Origin: a virus | Direction: 5' to 3' (one strand) | IMG/VR virus record: IMGVR_UViG_3300007351_000574 | Span: 1 to 41,639 of that record | Length of the DNA stretch: 41,639 nt | Shown here: positions 5,201 through 41,639 of the stretch, piece by piece | Numbering within the stretch: the stretch's first letter is position 1 | Layout: each line of letters starts with the position of its first letter | The notes under the pieces: generated by a model | Databases searched by the model: none | Told to the model about the DNA's origin: nothing | What the model saw: the letters and a program-made list of their open reading frames with translations, nothing else | Position numbers and translations under genes: made by a program

Positions 5201-8200
5201 GTTTCTCGGGATCCTGGATGTTTTTATAATAGTTATATCGCTCGTCGCTGAGTTCATTCAAAGTATAGTTCTCTGCAGGGATATCCCAGAACAGGCCTAC
5301 GCGATAACCCTTTGCACCACCCCAGAGGTCAAATACTTTCTTGATACCTTGCCTTAATACTGCTTTAAATTTTTCCGGGAGCCGCGCCAGAACCTCGGCT
5401 TTATTTCCGAGGAGAGCAAACGGCATGCCCCGGAATATCTTGGCTCTTTCTTCGTAATTTATGTCTTCTTTAGTACTTATGACCGACCCGTTTCCTACTC
5501 CGGTTATCTCTCGCTCAGGCTTAAGCTTCTTTTTCGTTACCGGCGCGCTGATCCCTTTTTGCATCTTAACCCTGGCTGCCTTGCTTATTTTCGCCTCTGA
5601 TGTCGCAGCGCGGCCCTGTATTTCATTGCTAAAATACGCCTTAATTAGATCTAAAACGTCCTGCTCGGTTTCAAGGGGAGCGCCGATTATACCGCCAAGT
5701 TCTGCAGCTAATACATCTGGCCGCTGTCCGCCCTCACCAAACAGCCAAGGTAGAAGTTTTAGATCCGCATATTCTCCTTCCTCTTTCAGGGCCGGATCCA
5801 GCTTTCCTTTAAGGTAATTCTTTATCTGATTTCTTATGAACCCTTCCTCTGCTGCCCCTGCCTCTTCCGTTTCGGCGCGCATCTCATCGACTATTTCCTG
5901 CATGTGCGCGTATGCCCACATCTCGGTTTTCTTCACGTCCTCTATGTCCTCGCCGAACTCTTTAGCGATCTGTTTCAGGCTCTTTTTCTCGTCGATGTAT
6001 TTCTTAAGGAACTCCTTGTCGGACACCGTCAGCCTGTTGATAATGTCTGAAGTATTCCAAAATTCCATCTCAGCCTTGCGCTGTTCAATACGTGGCTTTG
6101 GCTGCTCTTCTTCCGGTGCCGGAGGATGCGTTAGGCCGCCTGCCGCCGGAATATTTTTTTCTCTATAATCATCGAGCCATTTCTGCGCCTGTTTTTCTGT
6201 GGTAAAATTAGGGCTTATGCTTGTATTTACACCATTCTCTTCTTTATAAACACTATATCCTCCACCGCCTAACCCCTTGGGGCCAGTATTCTTCAAAATC
6301 TTTAGATTTTCTTCACCACCTAATACCTTACCTTTAAGCTTATTTAATTCGCCTTCATAGACGGTAATCTGCTTCCCATCCTGCAGCTTAACTTTATTCG
6401 GAACGATATTGCCTTCAGAATCATAGACCGGCAAAGTCCGGTATTCCTCACCTTTGGGTAAAGTCACGATCTCACCTTTTGTATTTACTATCTGCATCTC
6501 TTCATCCATACGGAAGATCTGCATCTGGTCAGGCTCTAACCCAGATACGCCGACTTCTTTTGGCATCTTGCCGAAGACGGGTTGACCTTCCTGCAGGAGT
6601 GCTTGCTTCATCTGGGGGGTGATGGTGATGGATTGCTGGGTTGTTAATCTGGCTTTCTCAAAATATCCTGGCGTTATCTCTTTTACTTCGTCTCCTATTT
6701 CTACCGTCTCAACCTGCGCCCCAAACTTCTTGGCGTAGTCATTAAGCCAGTTGGGAATTTGTTTGTCATAGAGATTCTGCGCCCATTCTCCGCCAACTCT
6801 TAAATCCTCGCCTTTAATACTTCCTGATTTTTTACCGTCTATAATTTTCTGGGCATTATCTTTACCTACAAAATTGCGGAGTTCTTCTGGATTCTGTATT
6901 GCCTTACCCTCAAGAATTTTTCCATCTTTAATAATATCAACACTCCATCCTTGAGCTGGGCCAAAACTTTTATACTTTATCTCGTCTATAATTTTACTTA
7001 AATCATAATACTCCGCCACCTGTTCCCCCGTCGCCCAAGTTATAAAGTCGTATCCATTCTCAGCAGCATAACGCAAGAGACGCTTGAGAATAATTTCGTG
7101 CCAGCGGGTAACGGCGGGATGTTGAGGCACCATCTTAAATCCTTGACCTATAGCTATACCTTTTTCCACTGATGCCTGGAATTTTCTATAATCTATACTC
7201 CACTGGCTCTGGATTTCGTTAACAAATAATCCTTTGCGGCCCTGCTCATCCGTTACATCAGCCATACGCGCATGCGCGAAGACGTTGGGTTCGTCCCAAT
7301 GAGGTTCTTTGTATGCAGAGACATAAGGTATATTTTGTCTTTGCCATTCAAGATATTCTGCTCCATTATATCGAACAGCATATTCTGCATCTTCTTTTGA
7401 TAGTCCTTGTTGCATTAAATCTCTAATTGCATCGGAGGGCCTTAATCTCGAATGTTCATAAGGTACCTTCAACAACATCTCCTTATAATTCTCTGTAACT
7501 ACGTTATATTTGGCGTCGGAGTATTTAGCGGTATCAACTTTTTGTGTTTTAGGATTTCCTACCACGAATTGATTGTAACGCTCTAAGTCATCCTTAGTTT
7601 CTATAGATTCGTATTCGCCTTCACGACTAATGCCATGCACCTGCTTACCTTCATCAAAAGCTTCCGTGGCTCTATCTGCTTCTACAACCTCAAGTTCTCC
7701 TACGCCCTTTACCATCTCCTCAATCGTCATCTGGTTCTTTTGTAGGTAGTCAAGGAGTTCGGGCTTCGATATCTTCTCCTTGCCTTTCAGAAATCCCTCT
7801 ATTCCAGACCACTCGATTTCTTCATTAGGTATCTGTGCACTCTGCAGGATGCCGCGCACCTGCTCTATTGGAGCGGATTCCGGCATCTTCTCTGCCAGGG
7901 CGCTTGTCATCTTAGAATAAAAAACAGGGGCTTTTTGGGGCTTTACAGCCATTCCGCCGGCTTTAGGCTGGGTAGTAGTAGTGGTGGCTGGAGCCCAGAT
8001 TGCCCTGCCTGCCTCGCCTGGTGCTTGTTTTGAGGGTGTTTTAGGGGTATATGTCAATCTGTCATAAGTAGCCTGTTTGGCTGGGTCTATAGGGCCAGCT
8101 GGCTTTTCTATCTTGGTGCGCATCAAAGTATAGAAATCCTTGATCATCCTAAATAAACCTACCCGCGTTGATGCTGCATCTAAAGCATCTACATCAAGGG

Positions 8201-25907: not shown

Positions 25908-27389
25908 TTAGCTTAACGGGTCGTATTCTTTCTTCTGACCGAAATTCTCTTCATTGCTCTTTTTTTTCACGACGGGGAATGCGAATGTTAAAGCGAGGGC
26001 ATCTGCGTTGCTGGGTGAAGCTAATCCTCTATCTTTCATCTGCTTCTTTGATTCCAGAACGATTTCTCCTTTTAAATTCGGGTATGCTTCCGGCCCGGTT
26101 AAATCATCTACTAAACGTTGATCATCAGGAATACATCCACCTTCTTCGAGCCATTTCTTTGTCTTAGCCCAGATCTCTGCGCGCTTATTCGCGAATCCTG
26201 GCGTACTGGATTTTGAGCCGAAAGAACAAAGCAGCCATTGCCGATTCATTGACTTGCCGATAGAATAAACTCCTGTGCCGTAGCCTAAGTCAATGATGAC
26301 GCCGTCTGCTTTTTCTTGGTCTTCCCACTTTGCTACTGCAGCAGCAATGACTGTATCATCATCGTTCTTTGCGAATTTCTGTAAGCGCCTGTAGACTAAC
26401 CCTTGCCTGATACCGATCAGGACCTCATCGCCGCCGGTCCAGGCCATGTCTACGCCGATGATCTTGGGTGCAAACACGTACTTATGCGCTTCTATCTGCT
26501 TGCCTTTTGCGGATTCAGCTAAGTCCGTAGGAATAAACTGCAGATCCCCTGCTTTGGGAAATAAACCAAGAACATGCACACGTACCCAGTCACTATCTAT
26601 GCCAAGATCTTCTATCCATTCCTTAACCTTCTGCTGGTTAACTAATATTGACTTACGGATATCAAGCTGCCATTGCTTCCAGCGATGCCGTAGTTTGGCG
26701 AAGCATTCTTTAAAGCGGCCGGTATTGCGGGTAGGGTTACCGAAGACAAGCCATAAAATCTGCGTACCGGTATCGGTTAATGCGCCTTCTGTAACTTCCC
26801 AGATTGTATCCGGAATAGCTGAGGCTTCATCGAATATTACCAGAATGCGTTTGCCCTTATTGTGAAGGCCCGCGAATGCCTCAGTCTTATGTTCGCTCCA
26901 AGGCACCTGATCTATACGCCACGTTCTTTCATGCTCAGGGTCTTTTGCGTAGATAGCTGTGGCTGTCAGTTCAAACCAATGCTTTATTATGCATAGACGA
27001 TACCATTTGCTTAGCTCTGCCCATGTCTTGGTTTTAAGCTGAGTCTCTGTATTGGCGGTTACCGTTCCCCTGGTGTCTTCAAAAGTAGACAGGCCCCAAA
27101 GGATGATCCAAGCTACAAGCGCACTTTTCCCCGGACCATTGCCTGAAGCTACGGCAATCTGAATCACATAGTTTATGGCGCCTTGGGCATTAAGCTTACC
27201 GGCCTGCAACTGATCGCGGATATACTGCAAGACTTCGCTCTGCCATCTATCCGGGCCTTTATAGCCTATGAGTTCTTCTTTGCCCCACTTGAAAGCATAA
27301 AGGACCCAACCGTAAGGGTCCTTCTCGTATGAGGCTATGTCTTCTATAAGGGCTCTCTCAGCCTTTACGTCCTCTTCGGTTGTGAGCAT
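25908..27389 (-). CDS. terL: Terminase large subunit
   Basis: A 493-residue packaging motor. The ATPase domain has Walker A SGNGPGKS (82-89) and Walker B ILVIFDE (182-188), with the coupling motif region VFGNPTRNTG (215-224). The C-terminal RNase H-like nuclease shows the acidic residues in IIGVDMAW (D314), GVIIDLGYGTG (D367) and SNADALALTF (D463). The enzyme cuts concatemers and pumps DNA into the head through the portal. It overlaps the small subunit gene by 32 bases and is followed by the HEPN cassette, then the portal module. All key residues are present. Confidence 0.93.
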   Translation of the reverse strand: MLTTEEDVKAERALIEDIASYEKDPYGWVLYAFKWGKEELIGYKGPDRWQSEVLQYIRDQLQAGKLNAQGAINYVIQIAVASGNGPGKSALVAWIILWGLSTFEDTRGTVTANTETQLKTKTWAELSKWYRLCIIKHWFELTATAIYAKDPEHERTWRIDQVPWSEHKTEAFAGLHNKGKRILVIFDEASAIPDTIWEVTEGALTDTGTQILWLVFGNPTRNTGRFKECFAKLRHRWKQWQLDIRKSILVNQQKVKEWIEDLGIDSDWVRVHVLGLFPKAGDLQFIPTDLAESAKGKQIEAHKYVFAPKIIGVDMAWTGGDEVLIGIRQGLVYRRLQKFAKNDDDTVIAAAVAKWEDQEKADGVIIDLGYGTGVYSIGKSMNRQWLLCSFGSKSSTPGFANKRAEIWAKTKKWLEEGGCIPDDQRLVDDLTGPEAYPNLKGEIVLESKKQMKDRGLASPSNADALALTFAFPVVKKKSNEENFGQKKEYDPLS

Positions 27390-27936
27390 GTTTTGTCCTC
27401 ATTCGCGCCTCTTTTATTCTATCCGCAAGGCCTTCAAGGCCCCTGTGTTCGGTTACATCGGTAAACATCTTTAGATGCTTGCCTAAGAGCTCAAGCGTTT
27501 TTGTTTTGTCGCAAAGCTTAATCTTCTTAGTGTAGCCGATATGTTCTCTATCTTCTCCGCGACCTTCAAATAACTCTTCTGTTTCTATAGCAATAATTGC
27601 CTTCCGCAATGGTTCAGGCATATCTTGGATATCTTTGAGCTCGCCGTTCTCATCATAAGCATCCGCAATATCTATTGTGGCGTGCTTAAGCAGTTCTTTA
27701 ATAACAAGGTCAGTGTTTAATTTAAGCCGGTTAATTTGCGCTGCTATCAATTCATTCACCCGCGCTTTAATCATAACATTTGATAACAAACGCGAAGCTT
27801 GCTCTTGGGCTGTCTTGCGTGAGTATTTAGCGCGGATTGCTGCTTGAGTGCCGTTGCGGTCTTTTAAGTATTCATGACAAAACCGCTCTTGCTGCGGAGT
27901 AAGTGGCCTAAGCTTGTTTTCTTCTTTTATTTCCAT
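27358..27936 (-). CDS. terS: Terminase small subunit
   Basis: The 192-residue protein begins with the Terminase_2 type helix-turn-helix: LTPQQERFCHEYLKDRNGTQ, then AAIRAKYSRKTAQEQASRLL, then IKARVNELIAAQ. Next come an oligomerisation region with TLELLGKHLKMF and a basic C-terminal tail (RTKHAHNRRGRKG). It recognises the phage DNA and recruits the large subunit. Its end overlaps the large subunit start by 32 bases. It is preceded by a possible 37-residue membrane protein and a promoter-like element. Confidence 0.9.
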   Translation of the reverse strand: MEIKEENKLRPLTPQQERFCHEYLKDRNGTQAAIRAKYSRKTAQEQASRLLSNVMIKARVNELIAAQINRLKLNTDLVIKELLKHATIDIADAYDENGELKDIQDMPEPLRKAIIAIETEELFEGRGEDREHIGYTKKIKLCDKTKTLELLGKHLKMFTDVTEHRGLEGLADRIKEARMRTKHAHNRRGRKG

Positions 27937-28088: not shown

Positions 28089-28276
28089 GTTCTATCTTGG
28101 GGACCTCTATTTAGTATTCTGAATGCCCACTCAATCTCTAATATTAAAAGTTGTTCTTCAACCGTACGCTCTGCTTCTTTTAGCCAGGCTCTTACGAGTG
28201 GGTTTTTTAACAACTTACGGTCTTTTGGTATTATCTTTATCTTCATCTCTGGATAATAAGCTCTGCTCCAATTCAT
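28085..28276 (-). CDS. Small helical hypothetical protein
   Basis: A 63-residue basic/acidic helical protein (NPLVRAWLKEAERTVEEQLL is the central helix) whose ATG overlaps the stop of the GroES-like gene (ATGA), the usual sign of a coupled phage gene. The nearest GGAGG is about 18 bases upstream, so translation probably depends on that coupling. The family is not recognised. The end overlaps the putative promoter element before the terminase genes. Confidence 0.55.
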   Translation of the reverse strand: MNWSRAYYPEMKIKIIPKDRKLLKNPLVRAWLKEAERTVEEQLLILEIEWAFRILNRGPQDRT

Positions 28277-28539
28277 CGTATCACTACCGCGATCCTCCCT
28301 TCCGGAAGCGCAAAATAATGCTGGCCAGCGTAGTCAAACTCGGTTGTGGCCGGCGCGCTGACAATTATCTGGTCGTTCCGTTTTATTCCACTCTTGCATT
28401 GGCTGCCTACGTCTATCACCCGAAACACCGAGTCAGCCTTGACTACTCCTTTAACAACATCAGGCACTACTATCTGACCGTTCTCTTTTTCTTGCAACTG
28501 CACGATTACGAATTCCCCTATTGCTCTTGGTCTTGCCAT
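28273..28539 (-). CDS. GroES-like co-chaperonin
   Basis: The 88-residue protein has the strand order of co-chaperonin GroES. GEFVIVQLQEKENGQIVVPD corresponds to the first strands and mobile-loop start, VFRVIDVGSQCKSGIKRNDQ to the conserved LAVG...VGD segment, and the end is YFALPEGRIAVVIR. The mobile-loop region (about residues 22-36, VPDVVKGVVKADS) is where GroES and T4 gp31 contact GroEL. Phages such as T4 use their own co-chaperonin to fold the capsid protein in the host GroEL chamber. Here the gene lies before the terminase and head genes, which fits. No groEL gene is in the window, so it would act with the host's. The match is by eye. Confidence 0.65.
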   Translation of the reverse strand: MARPRAIGEFVIVQLQEKENGQIVVPDVVKGVVKADSVFRVIDVGSQCKSGIKRNDQIIVSAPATTEFDYAGQHYFALPEGRIAVVIR

Positions 28540-28581
28540 GTACTACTCCTTTCTTTTATTCTTCCTCGCTGGTTTTTTTTA

Positions 28582-28665
28582 TTGCGGGGGTGGGATTCGA
28601 ACCCACGGTGTCCTTTCGGATACATGGTTATGGGCCATGCGACCTCGCCACTGGTCAACCCCGCG
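28582..28665 (-). tRNA. Initiator-like tRNA, anticodon CAU, long variable arm
   Basis: Minus-strand 84-nt gene without encoded CCA. The acceptor is CGCGGGG/CCCCGCA with a C1-A72 mismatch and A73, exactly as in bacterial initiator tRNA. The D arm GACC-AGTGGCGA-GGTC gives A11-U24, the second initiator hallmark. The anticodon arm is CATGG-CCCATAA-CCATG (CAU at 34-36), with C33 instead of the nearly universal U33 and only two of the three initiator G-C pairs (29-41 is T-A). The variable region is 16 nt with a small TCC-GAAA-GGA stem, a class II feature not found in ordinary initiators. The T arm is GTGGG-TTCGAAT-CCCAC. It lies between the HTH gene and the GroES-like gene. It could be a divergent initiator tRNA that feeds phage translation, or a decaying or repurposed one. 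Confidence 0.85.
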
Positions 28666-28681
28666 ATTGATTTATCTTTTC

Positions 28682-29110
28682 TTATTCCTGCTCTTCCTCT
28701 ACCTCAGGCGCCTTATATTCTTCTACTTCTTCCCCGAGATCGATGCGCTTTCTTCTTGCTTCGCCGATTGCCTTCACCAGCTCAACGCGGATTTTCCTAA
28801 TAACGAATTTCGAATATGCCTCAAGTTCCGCGCGCAGCTGATCAACCAGGTTTTTGATGTTATCAGACGAAACCTTTTCCGTACCCCCCCCTAAAGCTTG
28901 ACGTTTTTTATAGAGTTTTAATTTAGAAACTCCAGCTGCGACGCTTCCTCCGGATTTCTTCTGGTGGCCGTGCAAGATATAATGCAGCACCGAAGAAGCA
29001 ACTTTGATTTGATACTGGTCTTGAAAAAATTTAATAATCTCACAAGGCCTCTTTCCGTCCTTAGCCATCGCCCTGCATTGTTCTTTCTGACCCTCTGTTA
29101 ACTTCGCCAT
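28682..29110 (-). CDS. HTH DNA-binding protein
   Basis: The 142-residue protein starts with a homeodomain-like helix-turn-helix (LTEGQKEQCRAMAKDGKRPC, EIIKFFQDQYQIKVASSVLH), a form common in resolvases and phage regulators. A glycine-rich linker and a long charged helix follow (ELEAYSKFVIRKIRVELVKA), with an acidic tail. The function is unknown; a regulator of the late genes or a DNA-organising protein is possible from its place at the early/late junction. The ribosome site AAGGAGGG is strong. It is followed by the initiator-like tRNA. Confidence 0.65.
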   Translation of the reverse strand: MAKLTEGQKEQCRAMAKDGKRPCEIIKFFQDQYQIKVASSVLHYILHGHQKKSGGSVAAGVSKLKLYKKRQALGGGTEKVSSDNIKNLVDQLRAELEAYSKFVIRKIRVELVKAIGEARRKRIDLGEEVEEYKAPEVEEEQE

Positions 29111-29199: not shown

Positions 29200-29379
29200 T
29201 TATAATTGTTCGTTAACGCACAACATCAATTCCGTAAAATCAACCTTTTCGCTGTTTGATAAATCGCGCAGCCATTCCGTTAAATTCATTACTCGGCACC
29301 ATTCATCCGGAGTAACAGCTGCCTCCGGATCGGTGAGGCGATAGATCTTGCCTTCCTTGGTTTTAAGTACGAGTCTCAT
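29200..29379 (-). CDS. 59-residue protein coupled to the ParB-like gene
   Basis: A short gene whose ATG overlaps the ParB-like stop as ATGA. The product (start MRLVLKTKEGKIYRLTDPEA, middle TPDEWCRVMNLTEWLRDL, acidic end) has balanced composition and no hydrophobic segment. The family is not recognised. The coupling suggests it works with the ParB-like protein, for example as a small partner. The 90 bases that follow up to the next gene are GC-rich with short inverted repeats and no ORF. Confidence 0.65.
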   Translation of the reverse strand: MRLVLKTKEGKIYRLTDPEAAVTPDEWCRVMNLTEWLRDLSNSEKVDFTELMLCVNEQL

Positions 29380-31013
29380 TTCACCAGCTCCTTCGGCACC
29401 TTGCCCTTTGGCGCATTCTTAAGGATAAACGCCACAAGCGCGCTTTTCTTATCTTCTGTCGTATCGATGTTAACATTCAGCTCCTTGGCCAGCTTCGCCA
29501 GCTGGTCCTTAGTCATGGCCTGTAGATAACTTTCAGCGATCACATAATCCTTAGCCATGGAGAAACCGAGTTTGGTGGAGAGAAAATTAAGATCTTCGTC
29601 ATCAATAACTTTGGGTTTTTCCGCGATAACTTTTCCGATAAGTTCTTGCACCACCGTATCTCCAAGTTCATAAATCTTTGGAATACTGTACGGCCTACCG
29701 TATTCTTTACCGCCTTTTATCTTATCTTTAACGATCGCCTGAGACTCACTCCAACCCATATCGTTTAACAATATGAATAACGTAAGCACATTCCTGCAAC
29801 GCTGATCCTTGGTAACTGATACCTTGCTAATCCAGAAACCACGCTTTGCTTCCCGGACCCGGTTCTCTGTTTTGGATTTGGCGAGATCCTTTACCCGAGG
29901 GCCCTCACTGGCGTTAAGTTTAATCCCGGCTTTCCTTAGGATTTTAGGCACGTCTGCATTATTCACCATTTCAATAATCTTTCCAGAGAATGGATGCACC
30001 GCAAAAACCGTTTTAACGTCTTTGCTTGCCTTAAACAACTGTCTGAGGGAAAGATATTTATGGTTATAGTAATTCCTTTCATCCACGTTAGAATATTTAC
30101 GCTCCGGCGTGGTATCGCTTTCATACTCAAAGAGTTTCTTCGCTTCCTCTTGAGATACCACTTCTTTGCCCTGGGCTTTCAGCCTGGTAATTGTCCGCTG
30201 GGTACGCGCCTGTTTCTTCGCTTCAAAGCATCCCGGATCCGTACAAGTATCCGCTGCGCTTACGTCCGCGAATAATTCTTTTTGATTCCCGGTCCTTTTA
30301 GGACAATCCACGCAGGATCCTTTTCCGGCCAGGCCTTTTTCTTTAGTATCGAATTGCGCCTCCTTAAGCTGCAGCATAAAGTTTTTGTGGATATACTCCT
30401 GGGCTTCCCGATAACTATAAGGTTCCTTACCCCACTGTCCTCCCTTGGCCACCTGGACGCCGGCTTCTTTCTGCAGATCCTTAGGTACCCTGGCCACCAG
30501 GAGCGCAACCGATGGGCTGAATTTCCCATCATAGAACAACTTGCGATTCTCCGGGATCAGCTCGCAAAGCTTAAGCCGGCCGTAAATATATGTCGGGCTC
30601 TTGCCGACTTTAGCCGCGATATCCTTGACGTCTTTATATCCGTGCTTTTTCATTAAGGCTTCGTATCCCTCGGCTTCTTCCAGGGGATGCACGTCCTCGC
30701 GCTGCAGGTTTTCGATCACCATGCACTCCAGGGCCTGCTGATCCGTAAGCTGTCTGATCACGGCCGGGATCTCTTCAAGGCCTGCCGCGGCAGCTGCGCG
30801 CATGCGCCGCTCACCGCAGACCAGCTCATAAACATCTCGGACAGCCGGTCCACGTTGTGTCGTTTTGCCTAACAGCCTTACCAGGATCGGGTTAATGATT
30901 CCTTTCTCTTTAACCGACGCGGTCAACTCTTTCATCTTTGCTTCGTCAAAAGTCTGGCGCGCATTACGGCCAGATGTTTTGATGTCTTTAAGGCTTATCG
31001 ATTTCATGTCCAT
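29376..31013 (-). CDS. ParB/Spo0J-like protein with a zinc-type cysteine cluster
   Basis: A 545-residue protein. Residues 1-105 form the ParB N-terminal (CTP-binding) domain with GERR at 67-70 and ENLQRED at 101-107. Residues 110-150 are the KorB/ParB helix-turn-helix (DIAAKVGKSPTYIYGRLKLC). A cluster C234-x2-C237 and C257-x4-C262 is likely to bind zinc. The C-terminal ~270 residues are of unknown fold. Such long ParB-like proteins occur in many phages without a ParA and may organise or regulate phage DNA rather than partition a plasmid. No parA is in the window. The ribosome site AGGAGG is seven bases before ATG, and the stop overlaps a 59-residue gene. Confidence 0.8.
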   Translation of the reverse strand: MDMKSISLKDIKTSGRNARQTFDEAKMKELTASVKEKGIINPILVRLLGKTTQRGPAVRDVYELVCGERRMRAAAAAGLEEIPAVIRQLTDQQALECMVIENLQREDVHPLEEAEGYEALMKKHGYKDVKDIAAKVGKSPTYIYGRLKLCELIPENRKLFYDGKFSPSVALLVARVPKDLQKEAGVQVAKGGQWGKEPYSYREAQEYIHKNFMLQLKEAQFDTKEKGLAGKGSCVDCPKRTGNQKELFADVSAADTCTDPGCFEAKKQARTQRTITRLKAQGKEVVSQEEAKKLFEYESDTTPERKYSNVDERNYYNHKYLSLRQLFKASKDVKTVFAVHPFSGKIIEMVNNADVPKILRKAGIKLNASEGPRVKDLAKSKTENRVREAKRGFWISKVSVTKDQRCRNVLTLFILLNDMGWSESQAIVKDKIKGGKEYGRPYSIPKIYELGDTVVQELIGKVIAEKPKVIDDEDLNFLSTKLGFSMAKDYVIAESYLQAMTKDQLAKLAKELNVNIDTTEDKKSALVAFILKNAPKGKVPKELVK

Positions 31014-40471: not shown

Positions 40472-40629
40472 AAACCGGCATCAAGCTTATCCTGAAACTT
40501 ATCGGTTATGGTTTCCTTATCTACTATCTTGTTATCTGCAGCATCGCTAATTGGACCGGCAAGACTCAATATCTCCGCTTCCCCTGGGGTAACACTCCCA
40601 TTCGATCATACCAAGACGTAGATCCATGA
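40468..40629 (+). CDS. 53-residue single-span membrane protein
   Basis: A small gene coupled on both sides by ATGA overlaps (with the XRE gene stop and the integrase start). The product has a basic start (MKTGIKLILK) and one transmembrane helix (about 6-28, LIGYGFLIYYLVICSIA), then a polar 25-residue tail. Small lysogeny-expressed membrane proteins often exclude related phages or control integration indirectly. No family is recognised. Confidence 0.65.
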   Translation: MKTGIKLILKLIGYGFLIYYLVICSIANWTGKTQYLRFPWGNTPIRSYQDVDP

Positions 40630-41639
40630 GTTCTCTCTACCGCCGCAGTGGTATCTACTGGCTCTCTTACCGTCAATATGGGAAGGGCCATTGTATGAGT
40701 CTTGAAACCCGGGATCGGTCTACCGCACTCTATAAAAAAGCCGAAAAAGACAAAGAGCTGATTGAGGGTAGAAGCGTGATCCCTAAAGCGAATGCCACGT
40801 GCGCTCCCCTATTGGAAGAATTTCACAACTACAATCTGCACCGCAAGACAAAAGACGCCAATTCAGATGATTGCAGCAGGATTAAGAAGTTTCTTTCCTG
40901 GGCCGGTATCTCATCGTTTAATCAAATCACTGAACAGCGACTGCAGGAATACCTTAACCATCGCTTCTCTACAGAAAAAATAGCCCCGCGCACGGCGAAT
41001 ATGATCATCACCAATCTTAAAACTTGGCTCAATTTTTGCGTTAAGAATAGGAGGATACCGGAAAATCCCCTGGCGCGCATGAAGAAGTTTAAAGAACCGG
41101 TTAATCCTAAGCGATTCCTCAGCCGCGAAGAGATCAACTCTTTGCTCAAAGAGACTCAAAACGATGAGCATTACTGTAACGGGGACGCTTCACTGTATCC
41201 GGTAATTGCGATGGGGATATACGCCGGGTTGCGTAAGCAAGAAATATTCAGCCTGGACTGGCAGGATATCAATTTCAAACGCGAGGAAATAACGGTCAGG
41301 AATAAAGCTAACTTTGCTCCAAAATCGAGGAATTTCAGGGTTGTGCCATTGCACGAGAATCTCAAGAAGATACTGAAGCCTTTGGTCAAGAATAGCGGCC
41401 GGTGCTTCGATGTTACGAATCAACGCAGGATATTCGGCAGGATTACAAAAAAAGCCAATCTTACAGGGATTGGCTGGCATACCTTGCGACACACCTTTGC
41501 TTCTCAGCTTGTCATGGCTGGGGTTGACCTGGCTACCGTGGCTAAACTGCTGGGCCACTCAAGCATCACCACTACGATGATCTACAGCCACCTTTCTCCG
41601 GACCATGTCCGGGGGGCTATAGATAAACTCAGCTTCTAA
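40626..41639 (+). CDS. int: Tyrosine recombinase (phage integrase)
   Basis: A complete 337-residue integrase. The N-terminal arm-binding-like region (SGIYWLSYRQYGKGHCMSLE) is followed by a SAM-like core-binding domain (about 60-150) and the catalytic domain with R203 (AGLRKQEI), a Lys near 228-233, H285-x2-R288 (HTLRHTFAS), H311 (LGHSS) and nucleophile Y320 (MIYSHL). It inserts and, with an excisionase, removes the prophage. The stop is the last base of the window. No attP site could be identified; with the present ends there is no sequence after the gene. Confidence 0.95.
   Translation: MSSLYRRSGIYWLSYRQYGKGHCMSLETRDRSTALYKKAEKDKELIEGRSVIPKANATCAPLLEEFHNYNLHRKTKDANSDDCSRIKKFLSWAGISSFNQITEQRLQEYLNHRFSTEKIAPRTANMIITNLKTWLNFCVKNRRIPENPLARMKKFKEPVNPKRFLSREEINSLLKETQNDEHYCNGDASLYPVIAMGIYAGLRKQEIFSLDWQDINFKREEITVRNKANFAPKSRNFRVVPLHENLKKILKPLVKNSGRCFDVTNQRRIFGRITKKANLTGIGWHTLRHTFASQLVMAGVDLATVAKLLGHSSITTTMIYSHLSPDHVRGAIDKLSF

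Follow-up and report, generated by a model that had tools for sequence, protein, structure and literature searches.

The analyzed stretch of 41,639 nt (hereafter the window) corresponds to positions 8520-50158 of a 109-kb contig within a bacterial assembly of 1.46 Mb. It encodes a terminase, a portal-like head-tail connector, a major head protein, a tail protein, ParB, RecT, a RecE-like nuclease, SSB, a repressor, and a tyrosine integrase, a combination of packaging, structural, recombination, and integration genes that identifies it as a prophage. Between its protein genes lies an intact tRNA gene with a CAU anticodon. The tRNA gene, its parts, and its neighbors are the following:

40626..41639, plus strand: tyrosine integrase of the prophage
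29376..31013, minus strand: ParB-like protein, upstream of the 142-aa ORF
28682..29110, minus strand: 142-aa ORF without family match, directly upstream of the tRNA gene (16 bp gap)
28582..28665, minus strand: initiator-like class II tRNA gene, positions 1-73, no CCA encoded (ARAGORN, Rfam, RNAfold)
28659..28665, minus strand: acceptor 5' strand CGCGGGG, with C1 opposite A72 and the pairs G2-C71, C3-G70, and G4-C69 (sequence; as in the host initiator)
28641..28656, minus strand: D arm GACC-AGUGGCGA-GGUC, with A11-U24 and with G15 opposite C48 as Levitt pair (sequence, RNAfold; the Levitt pair covaries across the family)
28623..28639, minus strand: anticodon arm CAUGG-CCCAUAA-CCAUG (sequence, ARAGORN, RNAfold)
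28632-28630, minus strand: anticodon CAU, preceded by C33 at 28633 (sequence, ARAGORN, RNAfold); in the stem, 29:41 is U-A, 30:40 and 31:39 are G-C (sequence)
28607..28622, minus strand: 16-nt class II variable arm UAUCCGAAAGGACACC, stem UCC/GGA and GAAA loop (Rfam, RNAfold; kept in the relative L034 as UAUCCGUAAGGACAUC)
28590..28606, minus strand: T arm GUGGG-UUCGAAU-CCCAC (sequence, RNAfold)
28583..28589, minus strand: acceptor 3' strand CCCCGCA (66-72), followed by discriminator A73 at 28582 (sequence; as in the host initiator)
28273..28539, minus strand: GroES-like (Cpn10) gene directly downstream of the tRNA gene (42 bp gap)
27358..27936, minus strand: terminase small subunit
25908-27389, minus strand: terminase large subunit, after the small subunit

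ARAGORN called a tRNA-Met(CAT) at 28581-28666 on the minus strand, the sole tRNA found in the window, and the Rfam model RF00005 matched exactly 28582-28665 on this strand with 47.9 bits (cut-off 29), placing the long insert in the variable region. Unconstrained folding with RNAfold resulted in a full cloverleaf of -35.4 kcal/mol (z = -3.0) with identical MFE and centroid structures, an open 1:72 position, and a variable-arm stem UCC/GGA. Read on the minus strand, the gene comprises CGCGGGG UU GACC-AGUGGCGA-GGUC G CAUGG-CCCAUAA-CCAUG UAUCCGAAAGGACACC GUGGG-UUCGAAU-CCCAC CCCCGCA A. The original prediction of a phage-borne, initiator-like tRNA with a C1-A72 mismatch, A11-U24, CAU, C33 in place of U33, and a 16-nt variable region with its own stem is borne out on all these points by the sequence, the gene caller, the Rfam insert, and the fold, as well as by the surrounding prophage genes and a core sequence close to initiators.

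Like bacterial initiators, the window tRNA has no stable 1:72 pair (C1.A72; sequence, RNAfold). Formylation depends on such a mismatch, aided by position 73 as A and by positions 2:71, 3:70, 4:69, and 11:24 (PMC9976931, PMC7949028), and all helpers (A73, G2-C71, C3-G70, G4-C69, and R11-Y24, here A11-U24) are present by sequence, next to the CAU anticodon followed by A37. The acceptor strands, initially noted as matching those of E. coli tRNA-fMet, are even identical to those of the host's own initiator (cgcgggg...ccccgcaa), a stronger relation than the one quoted. While C1-A72 and A11-U24 stand as initiator hallmarks, a third one, which the original prediction did not mention, is incomplete: within the three-G:C motif 29-31:39-41, pair 29:41 is U-A and only the other two are G-C. 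In E. coli, these three anticodon-stem G:C pairs are required for efficient entry into the P site; the host's own initiator likewise lacks the full motif (A29-U41). Because neither a short variable loop of class I nor U33 nor the complete motif is present, we refer to the gene as an initiator-like variant and not as a canonical tRNA-fMet. The long variable arm with its own stem is a class II trait (Rfam, RNAfold), in bacteria taught to be confined to Leu, Ser, Tyr, and Sec tRNAs. A further CAU tRNA, tRNA-Ile2, carries lysidine after modification by TilS, which recognizes an acceptor of the C4-G69 plus C5-G68 type; the window tRNA has G4-C69 and G5-C68 in its sequence.

The prophage is bracketed by a perfect 38-bp repeat outside the window (contig C3:7014-7051, L031:7014-7051; and 50235-50272, L032:236-273), the left copy of which is the 5' half, including the anticodon loop, of the host's elongator tRNA-Met(CAU) gene. 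Thus, the phage integrates in one Met tRNA gene, whose 5' half it donates, and carries another. Given this location of the repeat, we also rejected that the window tRNA is a remnant of the attachment site. The host genome contains an Fmt gene. Among the 33 Rfam tRNA matches of the host assembly (G000), ARAGORN identified no tRNA-Ser, Asn, His, or Pro, probably owing to assembly gaps or divergent genes.

A DNA search of 98 relatives with the tRNA revealed one full-length close copy (83% identical) on contig 7 of genome G034, which belongs to the same bacterial family as the host; the copy lies in a second prophage. Its D, anticodon, and T stems are altered on both sides in a compensatory manner, the variable arm is kept as UAUCCGUAAGGACAUC, and position 33 is U. 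A ParB gene directly precedes the tRNA gene in G034, the protein being 40% identical to the window ParB over 171 aa. A pattern search across 384 genomes of the phylum found the long-arm form only in the window and in G034, a third match being due to chance.

When the viral contigs of IMG/VR were scanned by pattern for long-variable-region tRNAs with a CAU anticodon, matches were obtained in 15 contigs with the acceptor CGCGGG/CCCGCA fixed, at least 120 with only GCGGG/CCCGC fixed, and 97 without acceptor constraint. From the matches listed, ARAGORN defined 149 unique long-arm CAU tRNAs (about 150 distinct), a few of which are artefacts and were left out of later counts. All counts refer to sequences and not to independent events, and since most scans fixed GCGGG/CCCGC, acceptor statistics from them are partly given by design. 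Among the matches listed, 1:72 was unpaired in 95 of 147 long-arm CAU tRNAs, with U.U as the commonest combination, compared with 3 of 237 class II tRNAs of the same loci (Leu 2/117, Ser 1/77, Tyr 0/43). In the subset with 1:72 not fixed, again among the matches listed, 60 of 83 were unpaired, 14 had U-A, and 2 had G-C; with no acceptor constraint at all, 29 of 57 were unpaired. Mismatched long-arm CAU tRNAs outside the GCGGG pattern carried G2-C71 (15/15) and mostly C3-G70 (12/15). Within the matches listed, A11-U24 occurred in 73 of 113 mismatched or U-A members versus 7 of 29 paired ones, and the complete three-G:C motif in just 24 of the 113. With CAU, a variable region of at least 11 nt, a weak or mismatched 1:72 position, and a phage context, the window tRNA is by sequence comparison one member of this recurrent family and not a one-off. 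Well over a hundred other phage sequences with this combination suggest that phages keep an initiator tRNA of their own that is structurally distinct.

The conservation is also seen at the level of base pairs. Across 48 aligned members that had been selected because their 1:72 position is mismatched, 250 double-change cells were counted versus 66 +/- 8 in shuffles (0/500 shuffles), with covariation in all four helices, and the Levitt pair covaries as well (G15-C48 in 72, A15-U48 in 16). Together with the compensatory changes in G034, this supports the claim that the gene is no chance resemblance. The variable-region stems are longer than in shuffles, with a mean of 3.70 compared with 3.08 and no shuffle mean above 3.24, which is a modest effect. 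Among the matches listed, C33 appears in about 3-4% (4/100) of the long-arm initiator-like tRNAs and U33 in about 96%; on these counts, C33 of the window tRNA reads as a local, incidental change and not as a family trait.

Two further observations concern the family. Among the matches listed, about a third of the long-arm initiator-like tRNAs (34/100) end the anticodon stem, on its loop side, with U31.G39; initiators normally have G-C at this position, which adjoins the VapC cleavage region. Furthermore, the phages at L125, L178, L194, and L054 (L150 by pattern) each carry two long-arm CAU tRNAs differing in D-arm subtype, e.g., one of the U11-A24 type, whose variable arm resembles AGACAnnAAUGCUUGU, next to another of the A11-U24 type. 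In only a few of the 55 loci that combine a mismatched or U-A long-arm CAU tRNA with at least eight tRNAs, a short-arm mismatched CAU tRNA is found too, indicating that the long-arm form usually takes the initiator place of the array.

The assumption that phages seldom carry an initiator tRNA did not hold. Once the pattern was set to the normal variable loop of 5 nt and otherwise left unchanged, IMG/VR yielded at least 120 short-arm initiator-like tRNAs, of which 89 of the 120 listed are unpaired at 1:72, and a prophage tRNA-fMet is on record (PMC12429752). With U.U and A73 fixed, the long-arm form was found in 73 contigs in total and the short-arm form in at least 120. Since short-arm phage initiator-like tRNAs are common, it is the long arm that is unusual. 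The mixture of traits highlighted in the original prediction is therefore unusual with respect to a long arm on an initiator, although it recurs as a family and includes C33 only incidentally.

Outside phages and mobile elements, the combination hardly occurs in bacterial chromosomes. Among the roughly 85,000 species genomes of GTDB, CGCGGG long-arm forms were verified at six Prevotella loci, where the gene lies within a tRNA array; the remaining matches are chance hits, class I initiators with internal insertions, or unconfirmed. Together with the result for the 384 genomes of the phylum, these Prevotella island arrays led us to reject a bacterial chromosomal family. The array (L070, L073, L074, L076, L077, L086) reads Ser-Ser-Phe-Tyr-Trp-Met(long-arm)-His-Cys, or parts thereof; calcineurin-like phosphoesterase genes lie nearby in the two Prevotella genomes checked, and L070 additionally has integrases and a HipA-like gene. 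Insertions mimic a long arm in the bacterial initiator genes L080:3046-3142, L081:6198-6288, and L084:5367-5464, being internal duplications in L080 (Pseudomonas brassicacearum) and L084 and apparently unrelated sequence in L081.

Among cultured phages, the Bacteroides crAss-like phages PhiCrAssBcn22/23 carry a long-arm relative (82% to the query used; fold checked for PhiCrAssBcn22) at the end of an array of 23 tRNAs; a gene for a 10-kDa chaperonin and the large terminase gene lie downstream of it. The PhiCrAssBcn22 copy has no annotated feature, showing that annotation can miss such a tRNA. Apart from these crAss-like matches, searches of the phage collection with other representatives returned short-arm initiators in Vibrio phage nt-1 or nothing. 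A GroES-like gene between an upstream long-arm tRNA and a downstream terminase is common to a crAss-like locus (L280:3998-4082, 5685-6095) and the window (28273-28665), though these genomes have no evident relationship. A common phage lineage of the window and the viral loci was likewise rejected, as the protein comparison was almost empty except that the window ParB matched G034 (40%) and L268 (29%) and that L260 showed an SSB-like match.

Taking these data together, we consider it likely that the gene encodes a temperate phage's functional initiator tRNA, of a class II type encountered repeatedly among phages. It would be transcribed from the minus strand together with the genes for ParB, the 142-aa protein, GroES, and terminase, and released from the transcript by RNase P and 3' nucleases of the host, whereupon the host would add the CCA end, as none is encoded. 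Host MetRS would charge it with methionine through CAU and A73, and host Fmt could formylate it given the open 1:72 position, G2-C71, C3-G70, G4-C69, A73, and A11-U24. It may then enter the ribosomal P site and start translation of phage, or all, mRNAs. Counted against this sequence-based reading are the incomplete three-G:C motif, C33, the scan design, and the host's own initiator, because of which the phage's need for another one is not evident. Our best guess is that the phage keeps an initiator of different appearance as a safeguard, should host factors attack the host's own initiator or limit it. The broader proposal that many kinds of phages evolved a long-arm initiator class, charged and formylated by the host, invisible to its tRNA-targeting factors, and controlling or protecting initiation, appears rather unlikely to us.

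A special purpose inside the initiator reading, and not a separate machine, is that of a spare initiator resisting tRNA-targeting defence such as VapC-type cleavage, with the arm, C33, or the anticodon stem as escape changes. VapC is described as cleaving initiator tRNA (Winther and Gerdes, as cited in PMC10264068 and PMC12482277), and phage tRNAs have been argued to evade nucleases through anticodon-loop changes (PMC10264068). Occurrence of C33 in 4/100 long-arm and 8/120 short-arm forms and the frequent U31.G39, both among the matches listed, agree with this idea. However, U33 is retained in nearly the whole family, cleavage at the anticodon takes place far from the long arm, and a Pfam search of the host genome returned just one PIN protein, in a 329-aa frame that does not look like a small VapC. 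A backup against tRNA attack is plausible; a spare initiator with such escape changes is possible but less likely than not.

It is quite unlikely that the gene is an elongator-type class II tRNA of Leu, Ser, or Tyr identity whose anticodon changed to CAU, so that AUG would be misread with another amino acid. The long arm is otherwise typical of these tRNAs, the 3' half resembles a phage tRNA-Ser in BLAST, and A73 fits Leu and Tyr. Yet Ser identity needs G73, Leu A15-U48, and Tyr G1-C72 plus U35 (partly PMC9976931, partly general knowledge), and the window tRNA has A73, G15-C48, C1.A72, and CAU instead; the 1:72 mismatch is almost absent from class II tRNAs of the same loci (matches listed). 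The core without the variable arm scored 42 with a lineage initiator as well as with the G034 copy, and none of the non-Met tRNAs among about 3200 compared exceeded 23. When the core was reduced to its D/T arms by leaving out the acceptor and anticodon arms as well, the four closest tRNAs were other long-arm CAU phage tRNAs, and for 108 mismatched long-arm tRNAs the nearest other type was a CAU tRNA in 63 and a class II Leu/Ser/Tyr tRNA in only nine. L137, L182, and L407 resemble ordinary initiators with an expanded variable loop. The arm therefore appears, by these distances, to have been gained on an initiator scaffold, perhaps more than once, and not by an anticodon swapped onto a Leu/Ser/Tyr tRNA. 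A tRNA-Ser/initiator chimera, suggested by the 3' half, was discarded in view of the much closer initiator core and the absent G73. The outcome named at the outset as refuting, scoring as an ordinary class II elongator or pseudogene, was not seen: the core is far closer to initiators than to Leu/Ser/Tyr tRNAs, and the structure is intact.

A decoy or regulatory RNA that binds initiator partners (Fmt, IF2, nucleases) without starting translation is highly unlikely: the incomplete three-G:C motif and C33 could reduce P-site use, but a decoy need not keep its anticodon, whereas conservation, with covariation, extends over the entire cloverleaf, CAU, A73, and the Levitt pair, and in arrays the gene sits among many ordinary tRNAs, usually as the sole initiator-like one. 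A decaying pseudogene or integration scar, for which C33 might speak, as might U-A at a pair for which initiators favor G-C, is hardly credible in view of the strong fold, the Rfam score, the compensatory changes versus G034, and an attachment repeat located elsewhere, in the elongator tRNA-Met gene.

An initiator with a long arm tests how much MetRS, Fmt, IF2, and the P site tolerate. If long-arm tRNAs work, phages would supply their own machinery for the start of translation, and the arm and the U.U or C.A at 1:72 would offer a handle to tell phage from host initiation. Cultured crAss-like phages carrying one make this question accessible to experiment now.

Compared with bacterial tRNA-fMet, the window tRNA shares CAU, the open 1:72 position, A73, G2-C71, C3-G70, G4-C69, and R11-Y24, with an acceptor stem identical to that of the host tRNA-fMet, but differs by a variable arm of 16 nt instead of 5 nt, C33, U-A at 29:41, and a shorter D loop; the host initiator copy encodes CCA, which the window tRNA does not. 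Judged by sequence, it represents a variant of tRNA-fMet for which we found no description: the literature searched on phage tRNA arrays does not describe an initiator with a class II arm (PMC10264068, PMC7824862), and the literature searched on long-arm phage initiator tRNAs, mostly without subscription papers and bioRxiv preprints and thus no proof of absence, contains none either. With the class II tRNAs (Leu, Ser, Tyr, Sec), it has the long variable arm with its own stem in common and differs by CAU, the 1:72 mismatch, and the lack of G73 (Ser), A15-U48 (Leu), and G1-C72 plus GUA (Tyr). C33 is shared with the metazoan cytoplasmic initiator tRNA-Met(i), in which it replaces U33 (PMC9023262); the eukaryotic tRNA-Met(i) has A1-U72, is unformylated, and has a short variable loop (general knowledge and PMC11231383), whereas the window tRNA is phage-borne with C1.A72 and a 16-nt variable arm. 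As in arrays of phage tRNAs proposed to substitute for host tRNAs that were cleaved (PMC10264068, PMC7824862), a phage tRNA could here back up a host species; many long-arm relatives sit in such arrays, while the window tRNA is a lone tRNA among structural genes.
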